This document shows, one piece after another, positions 2,108 through 21,115 of a stretch of 21,115 nucleotides of DNA. Under the pieces are notes generated by a model. That model was not told the origin of the DNA. It saw nothing but the letters and a program-made list of their open reading frames with translations, and made no database searches. The first letter of the stretch is position 1. Each line of letters begins with the position of its first letter. The position numbers and the translations under genes are program-made. Source of the stretch: a virus. The DNA lies in IMG/VR virus record IMGVR_UViG_3300023184_003585, positions 1-21,115 of that record; one strand, given 5' to 3'.

Positions 2108-5100
2108 TTATATATTTATTTTTAAACTCTGTATGAAAACAGCCGGGGTACTCATACTATTCTCTAATCCTAATCCGTCTGTAACAGCACCAATTGTTGC
2201 GCCAGTTGTAGTGAATATGTTGCCTGTGTTGTCAGTGATGCTTACACCAAAGTTGTCAACTATGATGTTGGCAGCCCCCACAGGCAAGTTTAGCCAGGTT
2301 GTGGTATGCACAAGATTACCGCCGGTTATGAGTTCTGGTAAATTAGCCTCAACTACGTCAGATCCTGCAACATGTACTGCAGGAGCACCAGTAGCGTCAA
2401 CTGCTCTGCGAATTTGCCCAAGTACATTATTGACTAAATCTACAGTGTAGAATGTAATCTTTTCTCCGTTGATGTAAATAACTCCGGGAATCAACAATGA
2501 TGTGTTTGGTGCGGTTAGCACAGATGCATTGGTTACACGAATATTACTGTCTGTGATATTTAGATTACTTGCCAATGTTGTACTATGTGCTGAACTAATT
2601 CCATAATACTTGGGCCAGATTGATGTGTCGGCGGAACTGGCATTTGCTCCCATATCATGTACAATACGATAACTCATTACCTTTGTATTATTCTGTATCT
2701 TAGTACGCACAATCATATTTAAACTGTCATATAATGTTCCAGGAACTAATTCTTCAGGGGCATGGCTACTGTAAGTGTCAATATAAACGCCGCCATCGAT
2801 TGATATATCATTGGGGCTTGTGCCAAAACTTGTATTGGTGTAGGTGTTTTGTATTGTAGAATCTAAGAATGCTGAATTCTCATAATCATAGTACTTGAGC
2901 GTGATATTTGCACCACGTGGAATAGCATTTGCTATTCCGCTGGCCACTAGTTGTGTGCTTGAAAAACTTGCAATAGTTAGGCTATACGTAACATTTGCAT
3001 CAGTGTCAATCATTGTCAGCGGTTCACCAATTGTATAACCCAATGTTGTAAAATCAAGTTTTGCTACATTAGAGCTGAACACAGTACCAATGTTGCTGTA
3101 TGCATAAAGAACGTTACTGGTTGTAACTACTGATGTATTTGCATCAAATTTAACCCCAGTGACTGTTACCCCAGGGTAACTGATTCCTGACATCAGCTGC
3201 GATAAATCTCGGCCAGGCATTCCGGCTGCTGGAGCATAGTAGGCAGTAATGCGATCAGTGGCACTGGTAAACGAATTTGCTTGTAATGTAGTATATTTGG
3301 TATAATCAAATACATTATTAATAGCAATTGGACGCGACCCGGTAGAGACTCCATTAACCGAAACATTGCCACCTCTGCGTTGATATGCGCCGGTTACATT
3401 ACCCAATGTAATTAATTGTAGATTACTTGATATTGCTAATACTGTTGCATTACCAGTGGCATTTGCTTGAGTAATATAGTTTCCAACATTGGCTGTTATA
3501 TTTCCACTTAGTGTTAAAATAGCAGTACTGTAAACATATGAGTTAGATGAAGTTGCACTAGATACTTTAGATACCAAGTTTACATTTGTAGTAAGGTTAA
3601 TATTACCTACATTGTAGATGTAACTTGTTGTGTTTGCACTAAAAGTACCATTAATAGAATCAGCTCTAATTACAACAACATTACTATTGGTGACTGCCGA
3701 GTATACAGTTGCATTTGCTCCAGTAACTGCTTGTTTTATAATATTGCCAGCTGGTATTGTTACATTATCACTTAATGTCAAATATTCATATTTGTTACTC
3801 AATGCTTCGTATGCCAAGTTGTTGTAAGAAACATAACTTCCTGCTTTTACCGTAATATTTGGTTGCCAGGCAATGATGTTACTGGTGTAACTTGTACGAT
3901 CAAATAACAATGTTGTTGTAATGTTTCTTACAGTATTGTAACTTTGATTAACAAACTGTGTATAACTATTAATTGTGTTAACTTTGGTACTTAGGTTTGA
4001 GAAGTCTCTAAAGATATATTGATTACTAGAGAACGTGCCGTCAACGTCAACGAGCGTAATCGTATTTCCAGTACTGGTACTGTATACTGTTCCGTATGCT
4101 CCTGTATTGGGTTGTGATACAATGTTACCAAGATAAACACTTACATTGGCCGCGGTAGTTAGGGTAGTAGTAGGCAAACTATCAATTTGATAATGATTTT
4201 TAAATTTTGCGTAGCCTATTGCCCCGGTACCAGTTCCATTAATGAAGATAGTTGGCTGGCTAGTGTAACCTTCTCCGGCACTAATAACTTCAAATCTACT
4301 GATAGTATTTGAACTAAAATTAACGTGTGCAATAATATTGGCTCCGGTGCCACCACCGCCAAGTACTGTAACTGTTGGAGTTAAGAAATAACCTGATCCA
4401 ACGTTGGCAACAGTAACATCACTAATTCCGTAGCCATGTGTGTTATACCATTGACTGTACTGTGGAAGAGTACTCAGACTTGTTTCGTCACTTTCTAACT
4501 TACCGTTAGGACTACGATATTTGCCAATTGAACTGATATAAGTTGATGGGATATCAAAGTCTGTACTATCTCCATAGTATTCGTCGTTACCTTGATAATC
4601 AATTAAGTATTCACGAATACTTGTTCTATATGGTTTAACTTCGTTAATATAGTTTTCGTAGTAAGTTTGGTTGTCAGGTACATAACTTGCAGGCTGACTT
4701 AGTTTACGTAGTTTATGTAACACACTGACAAAGCTGGTTTTAAACGCCCAGTCGATTGTTGGCTGTTCACTTAAAATATAATTAATTATATTAAAGAACA
4801 AGTCATTTAATGTTACATCAAAGTCTTTGAAGTATGTTGTGAAGTTAGATAAAATAACTCGTATTTCAACACTTGCGTTATCTGAGGTATATATATTTTC
4901 ATTGAATTGTATTGTGCCGTTTTGTACACCTACTAGGTCTGTAGTACCCGACGAGTTAACCTGATATATACTAAACTCTCCGTTACCGTTGTTTAGAACT
5001 TTAATTGTATCTCCAGAAATTGCACTAACAGTAGCAATATCGGAAATGGTACTAACTACATACGTTGGCAAAACTGTTGAATTATAAGAACTATCGTACC

Positions 5101-8100
5101 AGTCAACTTTATCCCAATAGAAAGGAGTATAGTAACTTTGTGTACTAGTTAATGTCCAAGCAGTTCCGCTCCAAGTATAAGTAGTCCACAATTCTTGTTT
5201 TGTTTCGTCGTTAGTCACTAGTACTACATATCCACTCGAAAGGGCAGTGGTACTTACATAAGTAAGTTCGGCGTAGGTGGCTACTTGTAAATCATAATTT
5301 ATTGAGTCTGGCAGTGGTTCTGCACCATTCAATGACAACAGATTAGAATCCGCTACTAGAGGATACAATATACACATATCGTTAATCCACTCAAAAAGAT
5401 TTTTCAGAGCATCTTTTCTATTAACTATCAGTGTTTGATTTCTGTTTAGACCAATTCGTTGTTGCAATGGTAAAACATAATTGCCATCGACATCTAGCGG
5501 GGTCACTGGATTCCCCATAGCATCTATGCCGCTTAAACTATCTATTAGTTTATCAATAATTCTTGTAGGAATATTACTATTATCATTTCCTTCAGATACC
5601 AATTGGTATTCACTATGAATTAAATTGGTATTCTTTAATGTGTCGTAGTCAATGTGCAACACCGTTGTATTGCCACTCAACATGTCAGTAACACCATATA
5701 AACTTATAGTATCGTCCCTGATTGCTGCAGCGTATGCTATTCCTTGCATACTTGGGTTTTCGATGACATCAGCAATAGTACTAACTGTACTTTGATGGTT
5801 ACTATTTGGTTCTAGACTTGTCTTGCCAGTCACCCAATAATAGTAATAACTAGTATATGCCTTAGTGTCGGGATTTACCTTAGTTACAATACAATATGCA
5901 CTATTGTCGGGATACACTGGTGTTCCAGGCCCCGAGTAGGCACTAGGCGGGACATTGCTTTCTACCCACTCAGCAACTTGTATTGTACTGCCCGGGAACA
6001 TTCTGCCCCAGTTGTTAGTTCTATAAGTTAAATCACCTTGCTCATAATTTAAATAACGCACTTGGTCAATATTCCACCAAGTCTTTGATTTTTGTTCTTT
6101 ACCCCAAAAGAAATCTAAACTGTTGGCCAAATTTGGCACAGAATCAATTCCGCCAACTGCATTATAAACCGCCGGATCATAAGCAGTAATATAGTCCAAG
6201 TCTTGTTGAGCGGATCCAAGGATTTTACCTTTGGCCGGATCAATATAATCTAAATGTCTTATAATAACATCTGTATCTTTATTGTACAAATAGAAATTAC
6301 TAACTGTATCAATATCAACCTTGGGTTGCTCTGAACTAATTATATCCCAACCAACATTTCCCGAAAAGTTATTGTATGTGTAATAAGTTCCAGAATTACT
6401 TAATGGAACATAAGCACCACTTTCGGGATCAATGGTCAATGTACCGTCGTCACCAGGGGCTCCTACCAACATAGTGTTGGCATTCATTGCTATATTATAA
6501 CCAAATTGGTCGTTACTTGATAAACTATTATTTTTTAAACGTTGTACAAGAACATATTGATCTTGTGCAGTACTTGAGAACGATCCATTTACTAATCCGT
6601 AAACATACACCGAGCCAGATCCGCTGATTGTGTCGGCAAATGTTGTTGACGCATAATCAAACAAGGTTGAGTTTTGATCAAACGTTGCTGAGTTGTATGC
6701 ACTGCCGCCTACAGCCGCCACTACAAGAATTGACCCATCGGGACTTGACAACACTTGACTACCAAATGAATTTACTTCATCTACTGCAGGATGCAACAAT
6801 GTTTGTACACTGGCGTAAACTTCTAGTCCAAGATTTGCTATAATGTTGCCATTGCCAGGAGTTATTACCAAACGTTGGTACTGCGTTGTAACATTACTTG
6901 TAATTGTCAGTGCGCCATATCCTTCTACAACTGATCCAACACCCGCGATATTTGCTGCATTAATATTAGTATTGGCTGTTACTACATTTGCTCCGGTCAT
7001 TACAACATCAATGCCATTAATTCGTATACTGTCTCCTACACTGACATTACCAGTAAACCCAGTTGCACTAATATTACTAGTAATAGTACCGTAACTAGCC
7101 CCTTGGTTCACAAATCTATAAACAATACCACTATAGTATCCCGGCTCACTATACCCAGGACTTGCAACATATACATCTGTATCGTTACCAGATATACTTG
7201 TAACTATACCAAATTGGCCGCCACTAGTCGGTGTTGGTGATGTTATTTGTTCTAGTAACTGTATCTTATTTGTATCAATATCAATAACACTGCCAATTAC
7301 AGGTGCGCTTGAGAAAACAACGGCACTGGCATTTGATGTAAATCCACTAGTAACAACATTGCCGTTGACCGTGACTTTTAGTGTGGTTGCAGTGATTGGA
7401 TACTTGGTCAAATATGTTGCACCGTTGGCGATAAATCTTTCTACGCTACGATCGTAAATGTATACTGCACCAGCGGCAGTTTTACTATTGACTGTTTGAT
7501 AAGGCGCTGAAATTACTGTCTGACTTGCATCGCTGGTTGTTTTTACTGTGTATCCAAGGTTGGCAACAGCATTGCCAATAATAGTATTGGCGTACGTATA
7601 CACGCCTCCTACATTGGCATAGACTTCAACATTACCTTTAAAAGGTGCTCCAACAAACAGCCAACTACTATCAGCACTGACACTTATACTGTGTCCAAAC
7701 TTGTCCCCAGTATTACTGCCCCAATTACTACTGATAGTTTGTAATAAATTGAACGTAGTACTACCATCAAATTGGTAAACATGCACTCTTCCATACTCAC
7801 TGGCACCGTCGCCAGGGTTTCCAATGTACAGCAAATTGCCAGCAGTATCTAAACTGGCACCAAAGTTACTTACGCTTCCGACCAAGGCCCCGAGATTGGC
7901 CACTTGTGTTAGTGTATTATGATTTGAAATATTTGCAACAAATACTGCAACGTTACCAATGCCTAATGTGGGCATTCCTGCAGCAGCAAAAGTACCGTCA
8001 GCATTAATGGCAGTTACCGTACCGAATCCTGCTCCAGATATATAAGAAGTTTGCTGAACACTAGTGATACTGGCGTATAAATTTGCACCATTCTTGTATA

Positions 8101-11100
8101 TAAATGTGTTACCACTGGTCACAAATGCATTTGAACTTATATTACTCTTAATTACAATTGTGTTACCGCTTACTCGAACTACACTTCCCCAAGAGCCGCT
8201 ACTTAATTGAGCAATATTACTATCTATGGCAATAGTATTTGTTGCCACTGATGACAAGTTGGCAGTTAAATTTGCACCACTATCATATATGTACGTATTC
8301 CCGGTGGTGTTAAATGCATACGAATTAATATACCCAACCGTCACTGTGTTACTGTTAACTACATTGGCCAGCACCTTCCTTGATGCACCGGTACTTAACT
8401 GTGTAATAGTATTACCGGCTCTAATATTAGCGTTAATGCTTAATGTCAAGGTTTGACTATTTGCAGTTGTATTAAGTAATAATGTTTGTTCTTCTGTGGC
8501 TAATTTTAAATTTCCGTTTAAGTAACTAACATTACCTGTCCACGGGGTACTCTTATTGTAAACGGCCCACCCGTTGACTGCGGTGTCATGATCCACCCAT
8601 AACTTGTCGTTATCTAACCAGCCCTGGGGTGGAGTGATAGTGCTTATATCTGTACTTGATATAATTCGAGAGCTCTTTAATTCAAACAATGCACCTGTGC
8701 TAGATATCTGCATTGCAGATTTAAGTTGTACTGCGCTCTCGCCAAAGAATACCACATTGAATTTATAAGAATTAATAGTTGAATAAACTCGATAAACTCC
8801 GTCAACCCTTACGTCAAATCCTTTGATAACAATCAAACTTCCGTACGATAAATTATGTGGTTTATCAACAGTCACAGTTCCTATATTGTCAACACTATAT
8901 GATATATCGATAATTGATGAAGTACTTTCGGTTACTCGGTAAACATTCCAATCACCATTGGTATCCTTGGCCGTCCAAATAGTATAACCTGTTCCCACGA
9001 CCGATAGATTGGTGCCTAATTGACTATAATTTTTAATATCAAATAGTGTGGTTGTAATATCGTTTATGTTTACGTACCCAGCGGTGCCTATATCATTTTC
9101 GTAATGACTCTCACGATTCCTATTGTTGTATATTTTAGGAACATAGTTAGTTGATGTTTTAAACAGGTGTGATGGAGTATATCCAACTATTCCATTATCT
9201 GCACTGGCGTTGTTGGGCAATAATGTCAGTGCCTTGGGATTACTATTAAACGTGCTTTCGGGTAGAATAACCTCAACGTACTTGTTGTTTTCAAGAGCTC
9301 CGTACTCACCAACACGCATACCCCATTCTTCATATAGACTTATCTCACTGGTTACCCCGTTAAAGCCTGCAGCAGTAAATGCCTTGACTGCGTTCATTGT
9401 ACCTTTTTCACGAATGTAACCTTGATAAAATTTAGCCTGGGTTGTTATATCAATGCCAAAGTTTGTTAAGTAGTCGCGCGGTTGGAATCCAATGGCGCTA
9501 CCACTGTATAAATCAAAGTCGCCGAGTAGTTCTGGATTATCAACATCATTGAATCTATGGAACTTGTCTGCGTTGTAACTAAAGTTTGGCAATAGACCTG
9601 TTTTTATTTCTGTAGAGCTCAACTGTCCCCAATACGACGGGTCAAATACTGTAGATCCAAGTACATCTTGTATAGCAGTATAATTGTTGTTCTTGTAACT
9701 GACTAAACTGCCAAGAGGGTAATCTTTGTTTGATTGCCAGGCATCCACAGTGGTGTTATTGTAAATGAACCCCGGTGGGTTTAGTGCGCCAGACCAACTG
9801 CCAGTTTTCTTACCAACAAGTTTAAGTCTGTACTGTCTGTTACCAAGTTCAGGCACATAGATAATGTCATTGAAGACTGTTTTGTTATCAAATATTATTA
9901 CATGCTCATATTCAACAACATCAAGTTTAACAAGCGCGATAGTTTGCCCTCCATTGGCAATTAACTTGAATGTGTTACCTTTGGGAGTACTATCTCGACT
10001 TATAGTTAACTGACTGTATCCAACAAAATTATAACTGGTATCAATGACTCGGCTTTGCATAAGTTGATTTTGAATTTTATCAACTACACCTATTTTAGTG
10101 GATAAATTTATAGTACTCAATACTGGACTCAATACTATTACATTTTTTGCGGCCCATCCTTGCTGTGCCCAAGTTAAAAATTCCCTAATGCTTAATAAAA
10201 AATCCCGTTGCAATTGCATGTCAGGATCTTGTTCTTTGAACTGAAACCCAATACCTTTTAAGTATCGTTGATAACTCACTAGGAAGTCAACTACCTGCTG
10301 TCTACTAGTAAACTCAAATCCATACGGAACTGTTACTTTATACTTTTGATAGTTCTGATATACGATACCAGAGTCTGTGCCCACACGTATAGGATAAGAA
10401 TTATTATTTGCTAAACTGGGAATAATTGTAAAGTATGGATAGTCAATGTCAAATCCACTAACTGTATAGCCAGTACCTGTGCGTTCAACTACAACTCCGC
10501 TGTAGGTAACAGTTTTTGTGGGTGTAGATTTATATAATTCTACTGTATAATTCTCTTTAGGAATCATTACTCCACTGTTTTTACTTGACGGACTACTTTG
10601 TTCTGCAATCACATCCATAAATGTCTGGTCCGTAAATCCGCCGACTTTGTAGGCCAATTGAATGTTGACATTACTCAGGTACTCTGTAAGTTTTACAAAG
10701 GGATCAATGCCCTGGTTGCGTAGATAATCACTAATCCAGTTAATATAACTTGCAGCACGTTGGGGTGTTCCATCAACAGTGTTTCCATTAAGTTTAACTG
10801 TGTCAGGAGTTATACGTTGTAGTGTATCATTTAATACATATTGATTTAATTCGGTATTTTTATAATAACGACCAACATCAACCAACGACCCAAAGTAAAA
10901 TGCAGGGTGGCTCAGGGCCAACGCCTGTTGCATTGCATATGGATAATCGCTGCTGCGTCTCCATGCCGACTCAACTGGACCATCGTCACCAATTTTAAAA
11001 TTACCACTGGCACTGTTGCTGTTAAATCTTTTAACCAACATCTCAGTAGGAGCACGTAGTCTGCCAGTATCATCTACAGGGATAAAGCCGCTGGTGTTTG

Positions 11101-14100
11101 CAGTTGTCATTCCGGGTCTTGCAAAGCGAGCGTCTGTATAACTATCTCCGTTATTCCAGATGTACCCGTCTTCTAAATCGTGCCATAGAACCAAGTTGCC
11201 GCCAGTATACGGAGCAGGCCCGTAGCGTGTTTCCCACCAACTTGGTTGTTCAGTGAAACCTAGCATTTCCCAAGGATGAGTGTGTGGACGATCTGTATCA
11301 AAGAAATGTTTGTAGATTCCTCGCCAGTATCCAGGCAACGTCTCGCCATCGACTGTGTCTACAAATCTATTATAATTCCAAGTAAATGCTTCGCTTGCTA
11401 CAAAGTAACTGTTAGTAATATAATCAACACGATTACCGCCAACCCATTGTAGGAAACTATTAGTCAATAACTGCGTAAAGTCTTTGTTACTATAGTCCGT
11501 TGTTCTAAATTTGCCAGGAAGGTAATTATAAATGTCAAATACATTTGTTGCATAATCTACTTTGATATTGTTATAGATGCGTTGCTCAAACTCTAGTAAT
11601 AAATCATCACGGTAGTCACCAAATGCAGGTGTTATACTACCATCGTGTCCTTGTATAACATACACAGGGACCTGGTATGTATCGTCGTATAATTTAGCTG
11701 GAGTGAACTTAGGATATAATCCTAATTTTGTTGGAGTCTCTGGAATGTAATTCCCGTCAGTATTGCTATACTCATAGAAGGTAAGTACATCATCAATCGC
11801 CAATGGAGTCAGTATGGTCACGCCAGCTCGGTTTACATCGAATTGATAATCAACGCCTTTGGTCAACTGTACATTGTTTAAGTAAACTAATACTGCCGTG
11901 TTGCCCAATGTAGTGTCACTGAATACACTTGATATTTCGTAATCAACAATTTCATCACTTAATACGGTGTAACTAATTGTATTTTTAGTATCTCCATACG
12001 GTACCATATCACTATAGTACCAAGAAAATGATTTGTTTTTAACTGAGTTTATATTTTTTAATATTGTATCAAGCAATACTGGTATGTTAGTGTAATCTAA
12101 TCCAGAGGTTCTTGTACTCAACTCGAGTATTTTATTCTTTATTTTGCTGTACTCGTGACGTGCCAAATTAATTGATTTAATAAAATTAGCATCTTTATCA
12201 ATTAAAAATAATTCACTATACAATACAGGGGCAGCGTGTTGCAGTATACTGCCACCTTGTGCTTTAATTGCCACGTCCCTGAGATTACTGTCTCCTGGAA
12301 CTGATCCAACAACTTGTGTACTATTGCCTACTGCGGTTGTTACGTGGTTACGTAATTGCCCCAAGGTCAAACTTGAAAAGTTAGCGTTCTCGCTGTTTAA
12401 ATCTAAGTTTTGTGGAATTTCATAATAACCCAATTTACTAACAGAGTCGCTGTAGATCAATATATCAATTTGATCTCCGTCGGTCAAATCGGGATCAGTG
12501 ATATGGACATAGGAAACTATTCCCACTGTGATTAATTCATAGTAACTGATTAGTTTACTATTACGGTATACTTTAAAATAAGGAATTGTTGTCTCAACAT
12601 TTTTTGTAATATCAATCTTGAAATAACTATTCTTACCGTCGTATACACCACCAATTATTTGAAACTGTTTGCTCTTTTCTTTATTTGTAATCCAGATATT
12701 ACGTAACTTATAAGAAGTCAACGAGTTGTTTTGTTGTAAAGTACCAAGGTTATTAATGTTTTTTGTTACTGTTACTCCTGTATCATCAGTGTAACTAATT
12801 GTATCGGCATCAAAGTTATTGTCAAATTGAATATCACCAATTTGATTAAAACTACGATAACTTAATGGAAACCCTAAAACTGTATCATTGATTCCAGTCC
12901 CTTGTTGGTAAGAGAATATTTTTGTGCCAGCAAATGTACTGTCAGTTAGTGTACTTAAACTATATCCAAGACTATCAATGACATCAAATACGGGTGCCTG
13001 ATTGACACCGTTCTTTTGTTGCCCAGCAATCCAAGCGGTGCCGTTGTAATAGTACTCTACTCCTTTATTAGTGCCTTGAGTCACAACCAAGTTGTTGTTG
13101 ACATCAACTACATAATCGTCAGTGGGCACAAGGTTAATAACATTACTCAGTAAGTTTAATATGTATACAATGTCAACTCGATAAATTTGATTTCGTACTG
13201 TTGGGTCAAAGTCATTGGCAAATGCAATACGCATATCCTGTGCCAATTCAACACCGCCAATTGTATAACCTTGCGGTTGTAATTCAACTGTATTTTTAGC
13301 ATCAGTGATAGTAAAATCTAATAGATCCACTGGAACCTTGGCCACCCGACCAAAGTTGTATAATTGCAGGTCGGCGTCAAATTCAATGATTGGTCTATTG
13401 GCGCGAAGATTTTGATCAATTAATGCCGTTGTATTGTTATATTCTGCAGTTGCGTTAATCACATCAATATGGAACCAACGATTGCTACGTGTCCAAGGAT
13501 TTAAGTCTCGACTTCCTCGGTTAATTGTGATATAATCTTGTGTATCAATACCGTTTACTGCATATGGCTCGGGCGTAATAAATGTGTTTACATCTAATAG
13601 TCGTATGCCGGTGCCTACTCCATCAACATAGTAGGTATTGTTTGCATAAGATGTAGGCAGTGCGTTACTGTCAAATTTAATCTTTAGACCGTTGGTAAAC
13701 GTAACCCCGTTTGGACTTTTATAAGTTGTTTTACCTATAATATCTGTATCTATGTTAAAAGTAATATTATCAACGGCCAATAAATCAATTTGTCCAACAA
13801 ACTCAGACTCAACTCCGTCTTGATAAAATAGGTTAGTCAACGGCGCTGTAATGTTTGGTACTGTTTTGTACACATTGTCTATTAGATAATCACTACTTAG
13901 ATAGTAGCTGTACTCTGCCCTTGACAAGCCGCCACGTACAAAAACTTTTTGTAATGGATCTATTGTAAATGCCTGTGCCAATGGATTCAATGTAACGATT
14001 GGATCTGCATCAGTGTTTAATGATATGATCCAGGCGTTGAGTCGGTTCTCAACAGGTATTGTTGTAGTACCCACTGTCCAGTAATAAGGATCAACATCAC

Positions 14101-15007
14101 CATTGACAAAAATCAATGACTTAAGGTTAATTTGTGCGGGTGCGCTTACTCCATCAAATCCGTTTTCTCCTGCAGCAACAACTTCACTTAGTCGTCGACC
14201 GTGTATTTGATTATAATGAAGTTTGGTACTTAAATCTGCATTGCCTGCAAGTAGTAGTCGTATATAATAATCTTGTGCAGTCGGTTGTGGTACTCTAAAT
14301 GTCACTGTGCCAACATCTGTGCCATTATTTTCTACACCAAGGATGTCTCGACTTGATACCGTTGTTTGGTTATTTTTTACTCCGCTGGTTCCGGCAGTTG
14401 TTTGTATCCAAAAAGGAAAGCCAGGCTGATCAACAACAAATTTATAAACGCCGCCGTAGGCAAGTCTGACTGTAGGGTTCTCAACTGCTCCGGCAGTAGA
14501 AAACAAATAACTACCTGTAACAGGGTTACGTGTTACTGTAAAAGTTTGAGTTGTGGGTATTTCTGCGCCGTACACATCAACAGAGTCAGGGCCATCAGTC
14601 AACCAGTAGTACTGATTAAAGTTAATGAACTTGTCAAAATCAAAAAGTCCATCAAAACTATAATTTTCGCCAGAGAACAAACGGCTTTGATTGTCGGTCA
14701 GACCGCCATAGTGTTTAACTTGTTGTAATAAATCAATGTAACTACTAAAGAGTTCAGTTTCGCTTGTAGTTTTATTCTTAACAACAACGCTGGGCTCAAG
14801 TTGATAATTTTGACGTTGAGCAGTGGGCTCTGGTTGATAGTTATCTGTACTCTTAAATGTTGGAGCAAATTTTCGTCCCACATACGCATTGACGCTACGT
14901 AAGTCTGGCTGAGTTACCAACTGATCCAGTGTAGCATTTAAAAACTTTTTATTGGTGTCGGTTTTAAATACTTCAGGTAAGAAATTACTGGTCTTTATTT
15001 GTGCCAT
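2108..15007 (-). CDS. Giant 4299-aa baseplate/tail structural protein (gp7/gp8 position)
   Basis: One uninterrupted ORF of 4299 residues follows gp6 by 1 nt, where T4 has gp7 (1032 aa) and gp8. I see no clear gp7 homology; the location suggests a baseplate-periphery role. The N-terminus (MAQIKTSNFLPEVFKTDTNK, then FDKFINFNQYYWL near residue 130) and DRPHTHPWEMLGFTEQPSWW with YGPAPYTGGN (about 1240-1270) match giant proteins I associate with uncultured marine T4-like phages. Further regions: a short WQSNKDYPLGSLVSY module (about 1755-1797), roughly 60-residue repeats (2180-2320 and 3620-3880), an FG-GAP-like propeller segment (2370-2860), EVKPYRTSIREYL (about 3460), Gly-rich GGGGTGA repeats (3545-3600), and a C-terminal domain with SSHAPEELVPGTLYDSLNM and PGVIYINGEKI. 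No signal peptide or membrane segment is seen. The start overlaps no other gene, and the nearest GGGA is 13 nt upstream, so translation probably depends on reinitiation after gp6. Virion structural role likely; exact function inferred. Confidence 0.85.
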   Translation of the reverse strand: MAQIKTSNFLPEVFKTDTNKKFLNATLDQLVTQPDLRSVNAYVGRKFAPTFKSTDNYQPEPTAQRQNYQLEPSVVVKNKTTSETELFSSYIDLLQQVKHYGGLTDNQSRLFSGENYSFDGLFDFDKFINFNQYYWLTDGPDSVDVYGAEIPTTQTFTVTRNPVTGSYLFSTAGAVENPTVRLAYGGVYKFVVDQPGFPFWIQTTAGTSGVKNNQTTVSSRDILGVENNGTDVGTVTFRVPQPTAQDYYIRLLLAGNADLSTKLHYNQIHGRRLSEVVAAGENGFDGVSAPAQINLKSLIFVNGDVDPYYWTVGTTTIPVENRLNAWIISLNTDADPIVTLNPLAQAFTIDPLQKVFVRGGLSRAEYSYYLSSDYLIDNVYKTVPNITAPLTNLFYQDGVESEFVGQIDLLAVDNITFNIDTDIIGKTTYKSPNGVTFTNGLKIKFDSNALPTSYANNTYYVDGVGTGIRLLDVNTFITPEPYAVNGIDTQDYITINRGSRDLNPWTRSNRWFHIDVINATAEYNNTTALIDQNLRANRPIIEFDADLQLYNFGRVAKVPVDLLDFTITDAKNTVELQPQGYTIGGVELAQDMRIAFANDFDPTVRNQIYRVDIVYILNLLSNVINLVPTDDYVVDVNNNLVVTQGTNKGVEYYYNGTAWIAGQQKNGVNQAPVFDVIDSLGYSLSTLTDSTFAGTKIFSYQQGTGINDTVLGFPLSYRSFNQIGDIQFDNNFDADTISYTDDTGVTVTKNINNLGTLQQNNSLTSYKLRNIWITNKEKSKQFQIIGGVYDGKNSYFKIDITKNVETTIPYFKVYRNSKLISYYELITVGIVSYVHITDPDLTDGDQIDILIYSDSVSKLGYYEIPQNLDLNSENANFSSLTLGQLRNHVTTAVGNSTQVVGSVPGDSNLRDVAIKAQGGSILQHAAPVLYSELFLIDKDANFIKSINLARHEYSKIKNKILELSTRTSGLDYTNIPVLLDTILKNINSVKNKSFSWYYSDMVPYGDTKNTISYTVLSDEIVDYEISSVFSDTTLGNTAVLVYLNNVQLTKGVDYQFDVNRAGVTILTPLAIDDVLTFYEYSNTDGNYIPETPTKLGLYPKFTPAKLYDDTYQVPVYVIQGHDGSITPAFGDYRDDLLLEFEQRIYNNIKVDYATNVFDIYNYLPGKFRTTDYSNKDFTQLLTNSFLQWVGGNRVDYITNSYFVASEAFTWNYNRFVDTVDGETLPGYWRGIYKHFFDTDRPHTHPWEMLGFTEQPSWWETRYGPAPYTGGNLVLWHDLEDGYIWNNGDSYTDARFARPGMTTANTSGFIPVDDTGRLRAPTEMLVKRFNSNSASGNFKIGDDGPVESAWRRSSDYPYAMQQALALSHPAFYFGSLVDVGRYYKNTELNQYVLNDTLQRITPDTVKLNGNTVDGTPQRAASYINWISDYLRNQGIDPFVKLTEYLSNVNIQLAYKVGGFTDQTFMDVIAEQSSPSSKNSGVMIPKENYTVELYKSTPTKTVTYSGVVVERTGTGYTVSGFDIDYPYFTIIPSLANNNSYPIRVGTDSGIVYQNYQKYKVTVPYGFEFTSRQQVVDFLVSYQRYLKGIGFQFKEQDPDMQLQRDFLLSIREFLTWAQQGWAAKNVIVLSPVLSTINLSTKIGVVDKIQNQLMQSRVIDTSYNFVGYSQLTISRDSTPKGNTFKLIANGGQTIALVKLDVVEYEHVIIFDNKTVFNDIIYVPELGNRQYRLKLVGKKTGSWSGALNPPGFIYNNTTVDAWQSNKDYPLGSLVSYKNNNYTAIQDVLGSTVFDPSYWGQLSSTEIKTGLLPNFSYNADKFHRFNDVDNPELLGDFDLYSGSAIGFQPRDYLTNFGIDITTQAKFYQGYIREKGTMNAVKAFTAAGFNGVTSEISLYEEWGMRVGEYGALENNKYVEVILPESTFNSNPKALTLLPNNASADNGIVGYTPSHLFKTSTNYVPKIYNNRNRESHYENDIGTAGYVNINDITTTLFDIKNYSQLGTNLSVVGTGYTIWTAKDTNGDWNVYRVTESTSSIIDISYSVDNIGTVTVDKPHNLSYGSLIVIKGFDVRVDGVYRVYSTINSYKFNVVFFGESAVQLKSAMQISSTGALFELKSSRIISSTDISTITPPQGWLDNDKLWVDHDTAVNGWAVYNKSTPWTGNVSYLNGNLKLATEEQTLLLNTTANSQTLTLSINANIRAGNTITQLSTGASRKVLANVVNSNTVTVGYINSYAFNTTGNTYIYDSGANLTANLSSVATNTIAIDSNIAQLSSGSWGSVVRVSGNTIVIKSNISSNAFVTSGNTFIYKNGANLYASITSVQQTSYISGAGFGTVTAINADGTFAAAGMPTLGIGNVAVFVANISNHNTLTQVANLGALVGSVSNFGASLDTAGNLLYIGNPGDGASEYGRVHVYQFDGSTTFNLLQTISSNWGSNTGDKFGHSISVSADSSWLFVGAPFKGNVEVYANVGGVYTYANTIIGNAVANLGYTVKTTSDASQTVISAPYQTVNSKTAAGAVYIYDRSVERFIANGATYLTKYPITATTLKVTVNGNVVTSGFTSNASAVVFSSAPVIGSVIDIDTNKIQLLEQITSPTPTSGGQFGIVTSISGNDTDVYVASPGYSEPGYYSGIVYRFVNQGASYGTITSNISATGFTGNVSVGDSIRINGIDVVMTGANVVTANTNINAANIAGVGSVVEGYGALTITSNVTTQYQRLVITPGNGNIIANLGLEVYASVQTLLHPAVDEVNSFGSQVLSSPDGSILVVAAVGGSAYNSATFDQNSTLFDYASTTFADTISGSGSVYVYGLVNGSFSSTAQDQYVLVQRLKNNSLSSNDQFGYNIAMNANTMLVGAPGDDGTLTIDPESGAYVPLSNSGTYYTYNNFSGNVGWDIISSEQPKVDIDTVSNFYLYNKDTDVIIRHLDYIDPAKGKILGSAQQDLDYITAYDPAVYNAVGGIDSVPNLANSLDFFWGKEQKSKTWWNIDQVRYLNYEQGDLTYRTNNWGRMFPGSTIQVAEWVESNVPPSAYSGPGTPVYPDNSAYCIVTKVNPDTKAYTSYYYYWVTGKTSLEPNSNHQSTVSTIADVIENPSMQGIAYAAAIRDDTISLYGVTDMLSGNTTVLHIDYDTLKNTNLIHSEYQLVSEGNDNSNIPTRIIDKLIDSLSGIDAMGNPVTPLDVDGNYVLPLQQRIGLNRNQTLIVNRKDALKNLFEWINDMCILYPLVADSNLLSLNGAEPLPDSINYDLQVATYAELTYVSTTALSSGYVVLVTNDETKQELWTTYTWSGTAWTLTSTQSYYTPFYWDKVDWYDSSYNSTVLPTYVVSTISDIATVSAISGDTIKVLNNGNGEFSIYQVNSSGTTDLVGVQNGTIQFNENIYTSDNASVEIRVILSNFTTYFKDFDVTLNDLFFNIINYILSEQPTIDWAFKTSFVSVLHKLRKLSQPASYVPDNQTYYENYINEVKPYRTSIREYLIDYQGNDEYYGDSTDFDIPSTYISSIGKYRSPNGKLESDETSLSTLPQYSQWYNTHGYGISDVTVANVGSGYFLTPTVTVLGGGGTGANIIAHVNFSSNTISRFEVISAGEGYTSQPTIFINGTGTGAIGYAKFKNHYQIDSLPTTTLTTAANVSVYLGNIVSQPNTGAYGTVYSTSTGNTITLVDVDGTFSSNQYIFRDFSNLSTKVNTINSYTQFVNQSYNTVRNITTTLLFDRTSYTSNIIAWQPNITVKAGSYVSYNNLAYEALSNKYEYLTLSDNVTIPAGNIIKQAVTGANATVYSAVTNSNVVVIRADSINGTFSANTTSYIYNVGNINLTTNVNLVSKVSSATSSNSYVYSTAILTLSGNITANVGNYITQANATGNATVLAISSNLQLITLGNVTGAYQRRGGNVSVNGVSTGSRPIAINNVFDYTKYTTLQANSFTSATDRITAYYAPAAGMPGRDLSQLMSGISYPGVTVTGVKFDANTSVVTTSNVLYAYSNIGTVFSSNVAKLDFTTLGYTIGEPLTMIDTDANVTYSLTIASFSSTQLVASGIANAIPRGANITLKYYDYENSAFLDSTIQNTYTNTSFGTSPNDISIDGGVYIDTYSSHAPEELVPGTLYDSLNMIVRTKIQNNTKVMSYRIVHDMGANASSADTSIWPKYYGISSAHSTTLASNLNITDSNIRVTNASVLTAPNTSLLIPGVIYINGEKITFYTVDLVNNVLGQIRRAVDATGAPAVHVAGSDVVEANLPELITGGNLVHTTTWLNLPVGAANIIVDNFGVSITDNTGNIFTTTGATIGAVTDGLGLENSMSTPAVFIQSLKINI
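2109..2120 (-). promoter_or_regulatory. Putative T4-type late promoter element
   Basis: The minus strand reads AATAAATATATA, 13 nt before the ATG of the 343-aa fibre-like gene. It lies inside the last codons of the giant gene and overlaps that gene's TAA stop (2110-2108). It is identical to the elements at 1049-1060 and 18404-18415. The core resembles T4 late promoter TATAAATA with A in place of the first T. Confidence 0.5.
3365..4140 (-). repeat. Three copies of a ~60-residue structural repeat in the giant protein
   Basis: Within the giant ORF (residues about 3620-3880) three units share the pattern G-N-x-I-x-Q-x3-T-G-A-x3-V, followed by a T/V-rich strand and often GTFS...YIY. The cores are LGNIVSQPNTGAYGTVY, AGNIIKQAVTGANATVY and VGNYITQANATGNATVL. 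The same pattern occurs in two earlier units at 8061-8457. The copies are diverged at the DNA level, so the duplication is old or selected at protein level only. Confidence 0.65.
4200..4372 (-). repeat. Two Gly-rich GxGYxxxPTxxxxGxGTGA units in the giant protein
   Basis: Two adjacent units, GSGYFLTPTVTVLGGGGTGA and GEGYTSQPTIFINGTGTGA (residues about 3545-3600), share a G-x-G-Y-x3-P-T pattern and end in G-[GT]-G-T-G-A. I know this unit from phage structural proteins of aquatic metagenomes, where it occurs in runs. It probably forms a small beta module; no function is known to me. Confidence 0.65.
6437..7890 (-). other. FG-GAP-like beta-propeller segment inside the giant protein
   Basis: Residues about 2370-2860 of the giant protein contain repeated units of the form F-G-x-S/I-x5-[GN]-x3-[LV]-x-V-[GS]-[AN]-P, typical of FG-GAP/integrin-alpha propeller blades. 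Examples are FGASLDTAGNLLYIGNPGDG, FGHSISVSADSSWLFVGAPF, FGIVTSISGNDTDVYVASPG, FGSQVLSSPDGSILVVAAVG and FGYNIAMNANTMLVGAPGDD. Each is followed after a short stretch by a G-x-V-x-V-Y/F-Y strand such as GRVHVYQF, GAVYIYDR, GIVYRFVN or GSVYVYGL. At least five blades can be read, with a non-propeller insertion between about residues 2640 and 2740. The Ca-binding DxDxDG loop of classical FG-GAP units is not evident. Confidence 0.65.
8061..8457 (-). repeat. Tandem pair of ~60-residue repeats in the giant protein
   Basis: Two adjacent units at residues about 2183-2315 align well by eye. The first has AGNTITQLSTGASRKVLANV and ends NTYIYDSGANLTANLSSV. The second has SNIAQLSSGSWGSVVRV and ends NTFIYKNGANLYASITSV. 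Their C-terminal thirds are nearly the same (NT[YF]IY-x2-GANL). They belong to the same family as the units at 3365-4140, giving at least five copies in two clusters that flank the propeller and downstream regions. Confidence 0.7.
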
Positions 15008-15008
15008 A

Positions 15009-18000
15009 TTAAATTACAATTCCCAATCCCGAAAGAGTTTGATTAATTTGTGCCGCAGTAATTGCCGATATAATCTGCACGTTTGTTGCAGTGGCTGCGC
15101 TGACCATTATTTCATTTGGGCCAGCATTGATTTGCATTAGTCCGCCAAAAGCAACATCTGTATTGCTTGGCACGATAATAATACTTGCCACGCTGGGTGC
15201 CAATGCATTATGTAAGTATGTGCTTAGTTCACTGAAGTAAAATACATCACCAAAATCCCAATTGGCTGTGTCAAAATATCTGTTAATGGCAGATACTGTA
15301 CTGCTAATAACATCGTTATCACTGACATTGACATTGGGATTTTTTACAATCTTAAATGTTGCTTGTAAGTTGGCAGGTGCTTTTGCTCCAAACAAGGGCT
15401 TGTAGCGGCCAGGGTTATACACAATAGTATCGCTTAAGGCTTTGTAGTTTTCAAGACTTGTAGTGCCGCTGCCGAACTCGGTTTTTAATGTATCGTTTGT
15501 GGGCAATTCCGGTTCAGCAACTGTTCCTGTAGTGTCTTGTATATAAGACAAATAGTCAGCAGAGTACTGTGTAGTCAATATATACAAGTCCATGATATTG
15601 TTAGGACTTGGGTCAATACGTCTATCATTGGGACTATTGTGCCTGTATTGGAATGACATGCCTTGGCGACCAACCTGTGCCGAATAGTCGGTTAATTTTA
15701 CAAGAGTTCTAGTGTTGGTTGCACTTATCGACAGTTGGTAGAATTCATTGTCGGTTGTTGCATAAAATATTTGTTCACTTAGATATAATGTCCAATTGGC
15801 AGTAATTGCACTTTGTGTAGCATAGGTAGTAACAATAGTATTATTATCCACTGGTGCAGTTGTAATAAAGTTGTCTGTACTGGTAACTTGTTTAAAGAAC
15901 ACATATTTCTTACTGGTATTCACTGTGGGTGCCACTATGTTTGTAAATAAATCTGGATCGTTAGGGACACCGTCATTGTTATCGTCAGGGAATGTGACCA
16001 GTATCTGTGTATTGTCTGTGTAACCATCGGTTTGTACAACGCTGTCATAAATGTACCAACTTTGATCTCGTCCGATTGGAACTGCACTATCAGGTTGACT
16101 ATTTGTTTTTAGTACGTTAATTTGATCTGTTAAGGTCAATCCAGTTTTACTATCGAATGTACGTACATCTGGATCAAAGTAAAAACGTGTTTCTGCGGCA
16201 CTTTGGAACACATACTGAGTTCCACGATGTACCAGATTGTAATTGATACCGTTATATGTAAACGCCACAAGCCAACTACTATCTAATCCAGTGCCGGTTA
16301 AATCACCCTGGTTAGTTAGGCTAAAATTACCTAAATTTAAATCTTGTGGCAGTATTACTTGCCAACTTTGTGTCGACACATTGTATGTCAAGCCAATGTT
16401 TTGATAACTCTGTAGTTGATTTACTAGTTGTGTAATAAATGTTGCGCTGGGCAATGCAGTTTTAAACACTGGTATAATGGTATCCAACACAGCATTTGTG
16501 GGAATATTTTGACTCAATTGCAACGGATATCCTGCGTTGGCCATAACAACCGCGGCCCATAGGTATTGGCTTTCTCCGGTATACACTGGCGTACCTGTAC
16601 GTATTTGATTTTGTGCGTCAAAGAATTTACCAGTACCGGCAGTGAACTTTAATAATGCCCCGGTTGTAACATATTTTAAATTACTACTAACACCAAGTCC
16701 AGTTTGATACTGTGTGCTTGATCCGTTTACCAAGTAGCCGGTGCTACTGTTGCTAGATGCAGTACTACGTGCCCAGTATGTGTTTGCATAAGTGTAGCGA
16801 GGATAATTTTCATAATAAAAATGCAATAGATCGTTGCCCTCTATTAGAGGATTAACAGTATTATAGATCACTTGATAAATGTCGTCTCTAGTAGAGAAAC
16901 CAAACACCGTACTTGACTTGGGGTTTTGTTTATACAATATACCGTCACTGCCAAATATATTTGTACTAGAATATTTTCCAGTTACATCCAACACATCCAA
17001 GAATCGACTGATACCCGAACTTGATCGATTGACTGCTTTGACTTTTAGTATGGTACTAAAATTAGTGTAAGGAAATATATTATAATCTTCGCCAGTGACC
17101 ATACGATTTTGCGTATAGTACTGTGCCGGGGCTTTTGCGCGAATGTTTTCTATACTCTCGCGAGTTTTTGAATTAGATACTGTGTAGTGCAGACTTGCAG
17201 TAACAGTCAAAGTTTCAACTGCGTTAGTTCGACTAATATAAGTTATTGGTATAGTAACACTCTGAATCTCGTCGGGTGTAATTTTGTATTGACGTCCTAC
17301 ACTAGTTCTGTAGTATAGTCTATAAACACCTTGTGGTATATTGGCAAAACTACCGTCGCCAAATACTAAATCAATTTGATCATTGTTGCGACTATTGATT
17401 TGAAATAAATTTCTATTTGTACTTTGATTGTAAATTACATTGATACCAGCAACCGCAGGAACTGCTTTCCAAGGGGTAACTGGTGCACCGGTTACACCAA
17501 GTTCATATAGCCAAACATCTTCGTTGTTGATATTGTTGAAGTTGACATTGACCACACGGTTAGGCATACTTTGATTTAAATTAAAATTTTCAGTTGCCAG
17601 TGTGCCCTGTTTAAAGTATAAGAAGTATCCGGTATTGATGCTGTTATTGCCCAAGTTATCATTACGATAAAGAATATTAAACGTACCGCTGGGTATGGGA
17701 TTTGGTTCGTATATATAACTTTCGCCGCTGCTAGTAGCACTTACTGCTTCAAAACTTAATGCAGAATTTTCAACTATTGCATTAAACCCATAGCGCGGAA
17801 GTACTCCGGGTGGTAAATTTATGCTGTATTCATCATTGGAAATACCGCTGATATCTTGTGAGTTTCCGGGCTTTCCAATTGCTTGGTTATTGACTAATGA
17901 GGCATTTAGTATTGTAGTTAGCTGTTCTTGCCAATCGGGGTTAGCAGTGTCGTTCCAAGAAATCAATAGATTGCTTAGATTTAATCCATTGCTATCGTAC

Positions 18001-18386
18001 AAACTTTCTGTAGTACTCACACTATCGATTTTTAAAAAGCCACTTGCACCAGTATTGCGTTTAGGATTGTAACTAATTAATCGTGCAAGTTTTAAAATAC
18101 TGTCACGACGTTCTGCAGTATCAAAGAAATTCTCGCGAGCATTTAAATCTGTACGGAATGCAAGACTTTGTCCCAAGAATGCAATAAGATCTATTAGGGC
18201 AACGTATTCACTGGAGTCAGTGAAGTCGTTGAAATCTTCAGGGTAATAAGTACGCAAATAGTCAATCATTGACTTGCGTAGCGTCTCAAAGTCGTAACTT
18301 TGGAAATCAGCCTGTTTAAAAGTTTGGTAAACCCTGGTCCAGTCCTGGTTTACTAATAAATTTGTCTGACGTGTGGTTATTGACAT
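15009..18386 (-). CDS. 6: Baseplate wedge protein gp6 homologue, enlarged (1125 aa)
   Basis: This is the gp6/baseplate-J family wedge subunit, which in T4 dimerises into the ring joining the six baseplate wedges. The N-terminal 110 residues have the family pattern: LRKSMIDYLRTYYPEDFNDF, then SSEYVALIDLIAFLGQSLAF, NARENFFDTAERRDSILKLA and ISYNPKR. The middle has ESIENIRAKAPAQYYTQNRM followed by VTGEDYN (residues about 411-436), the family's A-P-x3-x-x-Q-N-R-x-V-T-x-E-D-Y signature. The C-terminal 135 residues contain NWDFGDVFYFSELSTYLH and SVASIIIVPSNTDVAFGGL, as in gp6 of cyanophages. T4 gp6 has 660 residues, so about 465 extra residues are present, mainly between about 510 and 990. The stop codon is 1 nt from the next ATG. 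GGA lies 9 nt before the start, and a late-promoter-like element lies further upstream. Confidence 0.88.
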   Translation of the reverse strand: MSITTRQTNLLVNQDWTRVYQTFKQADFQSYDFETLRKSMIDYLRTYYPEDFNDFTDSSEYVALIDLIAFLGQSLAFRTDLNARENFFDTAERRDSILKLARLISYNPKRNTGASGFLKIDSVSTTESLYDSNGLNLSNLLISWNDTANPDWQEQLTTILNASLVNNQAIGKPGNSQDISGISNDEYSINLPPGVLPRYGFNAIVENSALSFEAVSATSSGESYIYEPNPIPSGTFNILYRNDNLGNNSINTGYFLYFKQGTLATENFNLNQSMPNRVVNVNFNNINNEDVWLYELGVTGAPVTPWKAVPAVAGINVIYNQSTNRNLFQINSRNNDQIDLVFGDGSFANIPQGVYRLYYRTSVGRQYKITPDEIQSVTIPITYISRTNAVETLTVTASLHYTVSNSKTRESIENIRAKAPAQYYTQNRMVTGEDYNIFPYTNFSTILKVKAVNRSSSGISRFLDVLDVTGKYSSTNIFGSDGILYKQNPKSSTVFGFSTRDDIYQVIYNTVNPLIEGNDLLHFYYENYPRYTYANTYWARSTASSNSSTGYLVNGSSTQYQTGLGVSSNLKYVTTGALLKFTAGTGKFFDAQNQIRTGTPVYTGESQYLWAAVVMANAGYPLQLSQNIPTNAVLDTIIPVFKTALPSATFITQLVNQLQSYQNIGLTYNVSTQSWQVILPQDLNLGNFSLTNQGDLTGTGLDSSWLVAFTYNGINYNLVHRGTQYVFQSAAETRFYFDPDVRTFDSKTGLTLTDQINVLKTNSQPDSAVPIGRDQSWYIYDSVVQTDGYTDNTQILVTFPDDNNDGVPNDPDLFTNIVAPTVNTSKKYVFFKQVTSTDNFITTAPVDNNTIVTTYATQSAITANWTLYLSEQIFYATTDNEFYQLSISATNTRTLVKLTDYSAQVGRQGMSFQYRHNSPNDRRIDPSPNNIMDLYILTTQYSADYLSYIQDTTGTVAEPELPTNDTLKTEFGSGTTSLENYKALSDTIVYNPGRYKPLFGAKAPANLQATFKIVKNPNVNVSDNDVISSTVSAINRYFDTANWDFGDVFYFSELSTYLHNALAPSVASIIIVPSNTDVAFGGLMQINAGPNEIMVSAATATNVQIISAITAAQINQTLSGLGIVI

Positions 18387-18446: not shown

Positions 18447-18827
18447 CTAACCTGTGGTCAATTTGGCCGAGTTACCGTCAAATTGAAGATTGAGCGAAGT
18501 TGTTTGATCGGTGGGTATGTATACTAGATCAACTTCGACTTGTATACCGTGGTCTTGAGTGGTAATATTGATATTTTTCAATCCCATTCTAGGATCGTAC
18601 CCAACTATTCTTTTGACATCGTCAATGATTAGTTGTTCCAAATGATCTGTCAATGGTTCAAAAAGCAAACTCCATATCACGCTGCCAAAATTGGGCTGCA
18701 TGAGTTTTTCTCCCTTGCGTACACTAAAATGATTAATCAAGTCTTGCTTGACCAGTTCCACGTCCGTGACACGGAACTTTTTGTTACGATTAACGGTGCT
18801 AAAACCTCGGTATAGTATTTTTGCCAT
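18447..18827 (-). CDS. 25: Baseplate wedge protein gp25 homologue (126 aa)
   Basis: This is a gpW/gp25 family protein, the sheath-nucleating wedge component conserved in all contractile injection systems. At 126 residues it is close to T4 gp25 (132 aa). The family hallmark is present at about residues 36-60: RKGEKLMQPNFGSVIWSLLF followed by EPLTD, matching the R-x-G-E-x3-x-P-x-F-G-x5-x-L-F-E-P pattern. The N-terminus (GFSTVNRNKKFRVTDVELVK) and the C-terminal strand region (INITTQDHGIQVEVDLVYIP) also fit. It lies between the hub and gp6, as gp25 precedes gp6 in T4. Only 10 nt separate it from the hub stop codon, and no Shine-Dalgarno is seen in that gap, so translation is probably coupled to the hub gene. 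CATAAATA at 18842-18835 is close to the late motif but only 7 nt from the ATG. Confidence 0.92.
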   Translation of the reverse strand: MAKILYRGFSTVNRNKKFRVTDVELVKQDLINHFSVRKGEKLMQPNFGSVIWSLLFEPLTDHLEQLIIDDVKRIVGYDPRMGLKNINITTQDHGIQVEVDLVYIPTDQTTSLNLQFDGNSAKLTTG

Positions 18828-18837
18828 AGTCTAGTAT

Positions 18838-21115
18838 TTATGGACTTACATTGGCCAGCTGGATGTGTACATCGTCTGGTTTAGAGAATGTGCCGCCCCA
18901 ACGTAGGCCATACTGTGCTAGTTCTACAGTTCTAGAAACCATTTTAGATTCACTGCTGTCTATAGCAACACCACCGTTATGTGGACTACCTTTTCCGCCC
19001 TGGCTAACAGGTTTAGCAGGAGTAGTAATGCCACCAGCAGTAGGGTTGTTTGGTCCTCCACCAGCATTTATCCAACTTTGATATATACGATCTTGATCTG
19101 CTTGACTACGGTATGCGCTAGTAATTGTAATACTGCTACCAGTTTTCTTCTTGTAGTCGTCGGCCATTTTAAGTATTCTAGATTTAAAGTCACTATCAAG
19201 TTGATCAAAATTGCTTTGCGTACCCGAACCTTGGTTAGCGAAACGCAATACCGCACCGACCTCAATTCCACTGGTGTTAGGTGTTGCTGATTTTGGTGTT
19301 AGCGGTGCTGGTAAATTTGCTATTGCGCTGGCGTACAATACATCAATTGCATAACGACCTTGGTTAAAATATACGTCCCCGGTCTTGCCCAGTGCATCAG
19401 TCCCAGCATCACTGTCGCGCCATTTTTTAGCTGTATCAACACTTCTAAATTGGTGTGCTACAAACAACATACCTGCAGCAGTACAAATATCATCATCTGC
19501 TTTAATGCCACCGTTTGCAATCAATGCATCATAATTGGTTTTAAATTCGTTATACTGCATAATATCCTGGAACGCCACTGCATTAAAGAAATCTTGTTGG
19601 CTGGTTATTTTATCTTTGCCGGTCCAGCTGGCGTTGCTAGATAATGTTGCTGTTGCAGAAGTAACATAACCTGCAGTTTTTAATAATGCAGCGTCAACTT
19701 GATATTTGCCGATTCGAGATCCTTCGACTTTATCGGCAGCAAATTTACTTTCAAAATAACCCAACTCTGCCATCATGGATTTAACTTGTTGTGCAATCAA
19801 CATTGGGGTATCTCCAACATCTCCACTGGGGTTATATGTTGTTGCGGCATTTAGTGTATCAAGTGGGCATGTATCGCCTTGCACTTCTTTACCAATACTG
19901 TTTATGATTCCTTGATCTGTAGCAGCGGCTCCAGCAGATGCCCCAGAGTTAATAGGGTTTCCACTGCCGTCTGTCCATACTGTTCCACTGCCACTTGATA
20001 CTTGTCCCGGTCCGGCAACACCAGCATTGGCTAGTGCTTGTTTTACTTCTACTAAGTGTGATGAAATTGCGGTTGCTATCATTCCCACAGTGATGTATCC
20101 CACTTTGCCACCTGGATCAAATCCAGGGTTGGCTTTGTATGTGTTACTGCCTGCAGGGAATACTACATAGTCGTCTGCTTTGCCAACGGCTGCCGGCCAT
20201 AATATTGTTAAATAGATATCAACTAATCTAGGATTTGGTGCTTTGGTGCTTAGCCTATTTTTAACAAAATATTGATATACATAATCACATTGTGTCACAC
20301 GATCCATTTGCCTTAGATCCCCGCAAGTGGTACCGCATAGTTTTGCTCCCGACGCTTCGCCAAATTGTATCAATCCTGTATATCCTAGACTATTAGTAAT
20401 AGCAGGATCGAATGTTCTACCTGTTTCAAGATTCATACAGGCCAACATATCTAAGTAGTTTAAGTTTAGTTTGGCACTAATGTCTTTAACTTTGGTCAAG
20501 AAGGGGTCGTCTGTTGTCCAGCCGGCAGCAATGCCCTTAACCGTGCCTCGATCTAACTTGTTGTTGTTCTTTGCAGGGAAGTTATAGTTTGCAGGAGGTG
20601 CGCCTGTGCGTGGAGGACAAATTGTACTTTGTGCTTGTCTCTCCGCCGGGGCAACTGCACCTGTACGTGTCCAGGGCTGGTGTGCAGGCATACTTGATAC
20701 AATACTAGGTGTACTACTTGGCACCGCACTCCATAGTTTAGTAGTTGAGTTAAAAGTAGCATCGGCTGCAACATTCTTTTCAATAACTGGATTAGTTATT
20801 TCATTGCCGCCGGTACCGCCATCTAAGTCTATGGTTGCACCCTCTATAGTTGTTGCACCGCCGGCACTTACTAATAATTTACCGTCACTACTGACCGTGA
20901 TACTAGCCCCACCAATTTCTGTTTTAGCACCATATATCAATGTACCATCACTGCCGCCAATGTTGATCTGACCGCTAGTAATATTTGTACTAATACCACT
21001 GTCCATGTTAATTTTGCCTTTGGCTTGTATATTAACATTTGTATCACTGTGCATGTTGATATCACCTTCGGCACGTACATTAAATGCACCCGAAGTGTAA
21101 ACGTTACCCCAGTAT
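18838..21115 (-). CDS. 5: Baseplate hub/needle protein with lysozyme-like and M15 peptidase domains (5' partial)
   Basis: The frame is open to the right edge (758 visible residues), so the ATG at 21054 is internal and the true start lies outside. The first ~100 residues are gp5C/VgrG-like needle beta-repeat (AEGDINMHSDTNVNIQAKGK, INMDSG, TIEGATIDLDGG). A Pro/Gly linker follows, then a transglycosylase/lysozyme-like domain (LDMLACMNLETGRTF with candidate catalytic Glu230 at 20427-20425, then GYTGLIQFGEASGAKL). After a Gly/Ser/Ala linker comes a second lysozyme-like segment (AELGYFESKF with Glu455, then GSRIGKYQVDAALLKTAGY). The C-terminus is an M15/VanY-type peptidase: ITSAYRSQADQDRIYQSW, SPHNGGVAID (S-x-H-x2-G-x-A-x-D, His712 and Asp719) and DDVHIQL (His750), giving the three expected zinc ligands. 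It should puncture the outer membrane and digest peptidoglycan. In T4 gp5 (575 aa) the single lysozyme domain precedes the beta-helix; here the enzymes follow it, as in evolved VgrG proteins. The OB-fold domain, if present, is outside the window. Confidence 0.85.
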   Translation of the reverse strand, partial: YWGNVYTSGAFNVRAEGDINMHSDTNVNIQAKGKINMDSGISTNITSGQINIGGSDGTLIYGAKTEIGGASITVSSDGKLLVSAGGATTIEGATIDLDGGTGGNEITNPVIEKNVAADATFNSTTKLWSAVPSSTPSIVSSMPAHQPWTRTGAVAPAERQAQSTICPPRTGAPPANYNFPAKNNNKLDRGTVKGIAAGWTTDDPFLTKVKDISAKLNLNYLDMLACMNLETGRTFDPAITNSLGYTGLIQFGEASGAKLCGTTCGDLRQMDRVTQCDYVYQYFVKNRLSTKAPNPRLVDIYLTILWPAAVGKADDYVVFPAGSNTYKANPGFDPGGKVGYITVGMIATAISSHLVEVKQALANAGVAGPGQVSSGSGTVWTDGSGNPINSGASAGAAATDQGIINSIGKEVQGDTCPLDTLNAATTYNPSGDVGDTPMLIAQQVKSMMAELGYFESKFAADKVEGSRIGKYQVDAALLKTAGYVTSATATLSSNASWTGKDKITSQQDFFNAVAFQDIMQYNEFKTNYDALIANGGIKADDDICTAAGMLFVAHQFRSVDTAKKWRDSDAGTDALGKTGDVYFNQGRYAIDVLYASAIANLPAPLTPKSATPNTSGIEVGAVLRFANQGSGTQSNFDQLDSDFKSRILKMADDYKKKTGSSITITSAYRSQADQDRIYQSWINAGGGPNNPTAGGITTPAKPVSQGGKGSPHNGGVAIDSSESKMVSRTVELAQYGLRWGGTFSKPDDVHIQLANVSP

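Follow-up and report, generated by a model that had tools for sequence, protein, structure and literature searches.

The stretch of DNA analysed here (hereafter, the window) is a virus record of 21,115 bases, IMGVR_UViG_3300023184_003585, whose minus strand carries a baseplate cluster made up of a hub, a gp25-like protein, a gp6-like protein and a giant virion protein. The hub gene (18838-21114, minus strand) is the C-terminal part of a T4-type (gp5-like) baseplate hub; its frame stays open across 758 codons and recurs, conserved, in over 30 related contigs. The contig stops before the 5' end of the gene is reached, and the first three residues there (YWG) differ from those of a complete relative. 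Residue numbers are counted from the first codon of this 758-aa part, and all the residues named in the first-pass annotation were found at their places once the motif positions were checked. Downstream lie a gp25-like baseplate wedge protein (18447-18827, minus strand; Pfam GPW_gp25, 1.1e-8), a gp6-like baseplate wedge protein (15009-18386, minus strand; phrog_10646, 3e-289), which shares 34-37% identity with those of the jumbo T4-like phages PA5oct, Atu_ph07, SCTP-2, XaC1 and GAP32, and the giant virion protein, a single ORF of 4299 aa (2108-15007, minus strand). The order hub-gp25-gp6-giant virion protein is similar in GAP32 and XaC1; in SCTP-2, no hub was found adjoining gp6. The giant protein has both an FG-GAP repeat and a chitin-binding module (CBM_5_12), and PAC2, Atu_ph07 and GAP32 have giant proteins in the corresponding position.

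From the letters alone, the hub had been read as a needle-type beta-repeat followed by two lysozyme-like segments and a zinc peptidase, a three-domain observation that the sequence comparisons confirm and that, given the conservation of the frame and the matches obtained for each domain, is not due to chance. The C-terminal part of the needle occupies residues 1-103 (20806-21114, minus strand), with a DUF2345 match on residues 8-70 that stays under its cut-off (E 0.01). The needle assignment is borne out by the complete relative L002, whose hub of 1074 aa (P0002, L002:56-3277) matches the window ORF with identities reaching 93%, and whose OB domain and needle are spanned by phrog_13211, “baseplate hub and tail lysozyme” (residues 25-463, 1.1e-35). 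Within its first 130 residues, L002 has a gp5/VgrG OB domain (Pfam Phage_base_V, 1.2e-6, above cut-off), so the question of an OB fold in the missing 5' part is answered through this relative, the window itself being truncated. No lysozyme was found between the OB domain and the needle, which is the T4 gp5 trait, the enzyme-like domains being instead C-terminal to the needle, and the complete hubs of the window type (1074-1100 aa) follow the order OB-needle-LTG-seg2-M15, an architecture shared by more than 30 related contigs. Judging from its family, the hub would be a homotrimer.

The first of the three domains (residues 201-352; 20059-20514, minus strand), for which a lysozyme- or transglycosylase-like nature had been proposed, has turned out to be a lytic transglycosylase (LTG) by both sequence and fold. 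It matches the phage lytic transglycosylase 9udh with an E-value of 1.3e-18 by sequence and of 1.5e-31 by family profile, as well as phrog_4928/196, and Foldseek returns 9udh again (1.8e-8, with 33% identity in the fold alignment), together with phiKZ gp144 and MltE. The fold is of the phage type represented by 9udh, the GLIQF motif is present, and the predicted catalytic residue, Glu230 (20425-20427, minus strand), lies in the motif NLETGRTF (residues 228-235) and is a Glu in all 29 aligned hubs covering that position.

The second segment (seg2; core residues about 440-600, 19315-19797, minus strand) was initially assigned to the lysozymes on the basis of a short motif, a basis now widened by family, fold and homology, which makes the call much firmer as far as models and sequences go. 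It is matched by phrog_27932 (1.6e-15), and its AlphaFold (AF2) model, built from 26 sequences, is confident (pLDDT 92.5) and predicts a lysozyme-like fold, so that a fold of this kind is supported for both of the first two segments. Although each of its leading PDB fold matches is weak (best E 0.15), all of them (Slt, MltF, goose lysozyme, GH124 and MltD) fall within the lysozyme superfamily, and the search of BFVD retrieves a protein of the gp5-like OB type from an uncultured phage (5.8e-12) and, at 5e-9, the hub of Atu_ph04, with SLT and LT_GEWL proteins thereafter. Searching PDB by sequence produced no meaningful match for seg2, whether it was used by itself or in profile form. In the Pootjesviridae (phiM9, AF3, Atu_ph04 and ORM_20), the domain preceding the needle of gp5 is homologous to seg2 (27-32% identity), and in the alignment Glu455 (19750-19752, minus strand; in GYFESKF, residues 452-458) is paired with the Glu of (K/R/H)ES(S/T), within ESSG(N/D)Y, and its partner motif GKYQV (residues 469-473; 19696-19710, minus strand) with a GGYQM-type motif. 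Across the wider family the motif reads ESGGxY..N..GY.GKYQFG, to which the Pfam family Transglycosylas gives a below-cut-off match (1.3e-4), and a weak profile comparison aligns seg2 and LTG Glu to Glu. Domains of this family also occur in other places that contact the wall, as in the pre-needle position of the Pootjesviridae, in an apparently prophage-borne, tape-measure-like protein of Methylobacterium oxalidis (L166:1457-4804) and in a small protein of 220 aa of Flavobacteriaceae (Flaviramulus, L186:3749-4411).

How widespread is seg2 among related hubs? A scan with the domain itself yielded 28 and then 41 loci. With the OB domain and needle as the query there were at least 599 relatives, and the counts that follow refer to the 80 best. 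They are numbers of loci rather than lineages, since near-identical contigs and 5'-truncated hubs occur in the set: seg2 was the sole one of the three domains detected in 46 of these 80, none of the three in 26, seg2 with M15 in five and all three in three. Among the closest relatives (the best 80 of at least 599), the state seen most often is thus a C-terminal seg2, of which the window hub is an elaboration.

It is in seg2 where the catalytic residues vary. In 36 aligned hubs, the position of Glu455 is occupied by Glu in 20, Leu in seven, Val in five and Ile in four, that is, it has been replaced in 16 of the 36 close relatives, and Gln472 turns into Ala or Gly along with it, the remainder of the domain being conserved. 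The seg2 tree places this loss in one clade, which is adjoined by two hubs with Glu and Ala (L020 and L021), suggesting that the Gln was lost first. The Glu is also missing elsewhere (Thr in L091 and L092; deleted in L114, L116, L117 and L122), so independent losses occur outside that clade. That the loss of the seg2 Glu is a mere consequence of having gained the LTG domain was considered and rejected, since no LTG or M15 was detected in these six hubs and since L022, which the LTG tree places in the loss clade, has its seg2 Glu intact. As for L021, a domain exchange is likelier than a reversion restoring the Glu, because its seg2 is 64% identical to that of L069 and its other domains 85-91%; its seg2 was probably received by recombination.

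These losses make seg2 catalysis look dispensable, at least in the sister clade, and raise the alternative that only two of the three domains of the window hub are enzymes, its seg2 serving already to bind peptidoglycan or as a spacer, with no catalysis. The drift of the motif in the window branch (GYFESKF...GSRIGKYQV) from the consensus of the wider family points in the same direction. However, both Glu and Gln are kept in the window, L002 and L011, in the deep outgroups L071, L078 and L080 and in most seg2-only hubs, and their retention in the window branch is what would be expected if catalysis were maintained there. We therefore regard a non-catalytic seg2 in the window as possible but rather unlikely; with its Glu and Gln intact, the domain of this phage probably cuts glycan as well. 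In the relatives that did lose the Glu, catalysis may have been given up and the domain may survive as a binding or spacer module, and this clade offers a natural mutant series for the question of which activities entry needs.

The third domain (residues 638-752; 18859-19203, minus strand) is a VanY/M15-type zinc peptidase-like domain, as claimed, and the three ligand positions then proposed (His712, Asp719 and His750) are all in place. Pfam VanY scores above its cut-off on it (28.4 bits versus 25; 1.5e-6), M15_4 matches too, and so does the endolysin family phrog_2649 (1.2e-14). The predicted Zn ligands His712 and Asp719 lie in HNGGVAID (18958-18981, minus strand), within SPHNGGVAIDS (residues 710-720), and the predicted ligand His750, together with a candidate base, Asp747, in DDVH (18865-18876, minus strand), within DDVHIQ (residues 747-752), so that both the SxHxxGxAxD motif and the C-terminal His of M15/VanY are present. 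In Ply500, the His and the Asp are likewise seven residues apart, with an Asp three residues before the last His. The family profile aligns SxHxxGxAxD with the Ply500 peptidase 2vo9 at an E-value of 0.021, whereas a tblastn search with the M15 segment against phages had no match at E 0.01. The call, which had been described as firm, should nevertheless be taken as good in view of its modest single-sequence score and weak structural match: a PDB search with the segment as a single sequence returned no related chain, and in the model comprising the three domains the M15 part has moderate confidence (blocks of 44-91 pLDDT) and a weak match of the model to the VanY-like 4mph (E 0.84). Such absent or weak matches to solved M15 structures might be taken to mean that the domain is a binding relic deprived of zinc hydrolysis, but this is very unlikely, as across 37 aligned hubs neither the three ligands nor Asp747 vary, in contrast to the remainder. 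The M15 ligands and the LTG Glu never change, even where the domains diverge down to 46-60% identity.

Taken together, sequences and models support the interpretation advanced in the first-pass annotation, a wall-digesting tip with glycan- and peptide-cutting activities. Our preferred reading, which we hold to be very probably correct, is that an uncultured T4-like myovirus from the PA5oct/RaK2/GAP32 neighbourhood uses this hub, as a trimer, to puncture cells, with LTG and M15 opening the wall for the tube and seg2 probably acting as a second glycan cutter. The N-terminal OB domains would anchor the hub in the baseplate, with the beta-repeat needle next and the three wall-enzyme domains forming a C-terminal tail on or close to the tip, although the domains behind the needle might also lie beside the tip rather than on it. 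Upon sheath contraction the tip would cross the outer membrane of a presumably Gram-negative host, and the LTG would then cut the glycan strands and the M15 the stem or cross-link peptides, leaving a hole for the tube. That the C-terminal enzymes serve in assembly or lysis instead of entry, as a virion-bound endolysin, is scarcely plausible despite the match of the M15 segment to an endolysin family, since they are fused to the OB-needle hub in every relative with the 5' part present, the gene lies in a baseplate cluster, and T4 hubs are injection-tip proteins. If the cell-puncturing reading is true, a T4-like hub would combine two domains of the glycan-cutter type with one of the peptide-cutter type (and esterase-like ones in relatives), meaning that such tips can be full wall-digesting machines, and its domains would be candidate antibacterial modules.

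How does this hub compare with known ones? Evolved VgrG effectors of type VI secretion are likewise OB-needle spikes with a C-terminal enzymatic extension, although the window hub belongs to a phage baseplate context. It shares with T4 gp5 the N-terminal OB domain, the needle, a muralytic domain and a baseplate with gp25 and gp6; however, gp5 has one lysozyme, placed before the beta-helix (PMC3622015, PMC5259590), whereas the window hub has three wall-enzyme domains behind the needle. Enzymes in that position have already been described in RaK2-like phages: RaK2 gp078 has a beta-helix with a C-terminal lysozyme, termed very unusual (PMC3622015), and in its CBB homolog, CBB_240, the lysozyme at the C-terminus is accompanied by an OB domain and a possible M23 peptidase (PMC5259590), a layout also found in the hub of GAP32 (gp234), with its M23 peptidase-like region. 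Like the window hub, these run from an OB domain through a needle to C-terminal enzymes. The kind of hub is therefore known, and the combination of a peptidase with a glycosidase is not new. What differs is the set, M23 and a T4-type lysozyme in those hubs and LTG, seg2 and M15 in that of the window. Enzymes C-terminal to the needle are thus less new than initially stated; as for this set and order, no LTG/seg2/M15 hub was found among 50,697 phage records, and neither the combination nor the nested and swapped modules described below were found in those records or in the searched literature. According to a 2017 review (PMC5380687), the virion-associated lysins known to have two lytic domains all came from phages of Gram-positive bacteria, and only one Gram-negative phage had a virion-associated lysin with demonstrated endopeptidase activity. 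Other comparisons are more partial. The Pootjesviridae gp5 has its seg2 before the needle and no detected LTG or M15; phiKZ-type transglycosylases (gp144, gp181) and 9udh share the LTG domain but differ in carrier protein and domain order; and PA5oct-type hubs (PAC2) provide a contrast case, with no enzyme detected behind the needle.

Judging from these sequences, the window hub is one of a group of related phage tips in which wall enzymes are stacked, swapped and sometimes disabled. In three relatives (L078:1001-5380, L080:1118-5506 and L077:1-2652; the contigs of the first two are 152 and 155 kb), a GDSL/SGNH-like stretch (GDS, GSND, LHP) is nested in seg2, between AELGYFES and IGKYQV, and the C-terminus carries an alpha/beta-hydrolase-like domain (GFSKGAE). 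The Pfam scores of both parts are below cut-off (E 0.001-0.04), so they are to be taken as leads, and the presence of the nested module in three separate contigs argues against an assembly error. These SGNH-nested hubs reach about 1460 aa and up to five enzyme-like domains per hub. In another relative (L089:5001-8267), the LTG slot between needle and seg2 is taken by a chitinase-like domain of GH19 type, with a Pfam score above cut-off, and L103 and L108 have there a stretch of similar size without an assigned family. In L081 (3407-6322), the OB domain is followed by a seg2 homolog before the needle, in the position of the T4 lysozyme, and the C-terminus is M15_3-like; L083 and L084 have hubs of the same type. 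Whether the needle tip of this T4-like lineage is, in general, a modular cassette of wall enzymes is a proposition for which the chances seem evenly balanced: seg2 would be its core, with LTG or GH19 before it, M15 or an alpha/beta hydrolase after it and an SGNH esterase inside it, up to five enzyme-like domains in all, and some branches would have lost seg2 catalysis, the added enzymes retaining theirs. Apart from these, the hub of the Sinorhizobium phage Phosso (L009:4240-7374) has its needle joined by a glycine-rich linker of great length to regions that match phrog_430 and phrog_90, with a C-terminal end that is trypsin-like by eye, and in three further hubs (L142:4914-8255, L133:2795-5476 and L148:4911-8108) seg2 is degenerate or unrecognisable and the protein ends in a long low-complexity or helical-looking extension, as though a structural tail had replaced the enzyme there.
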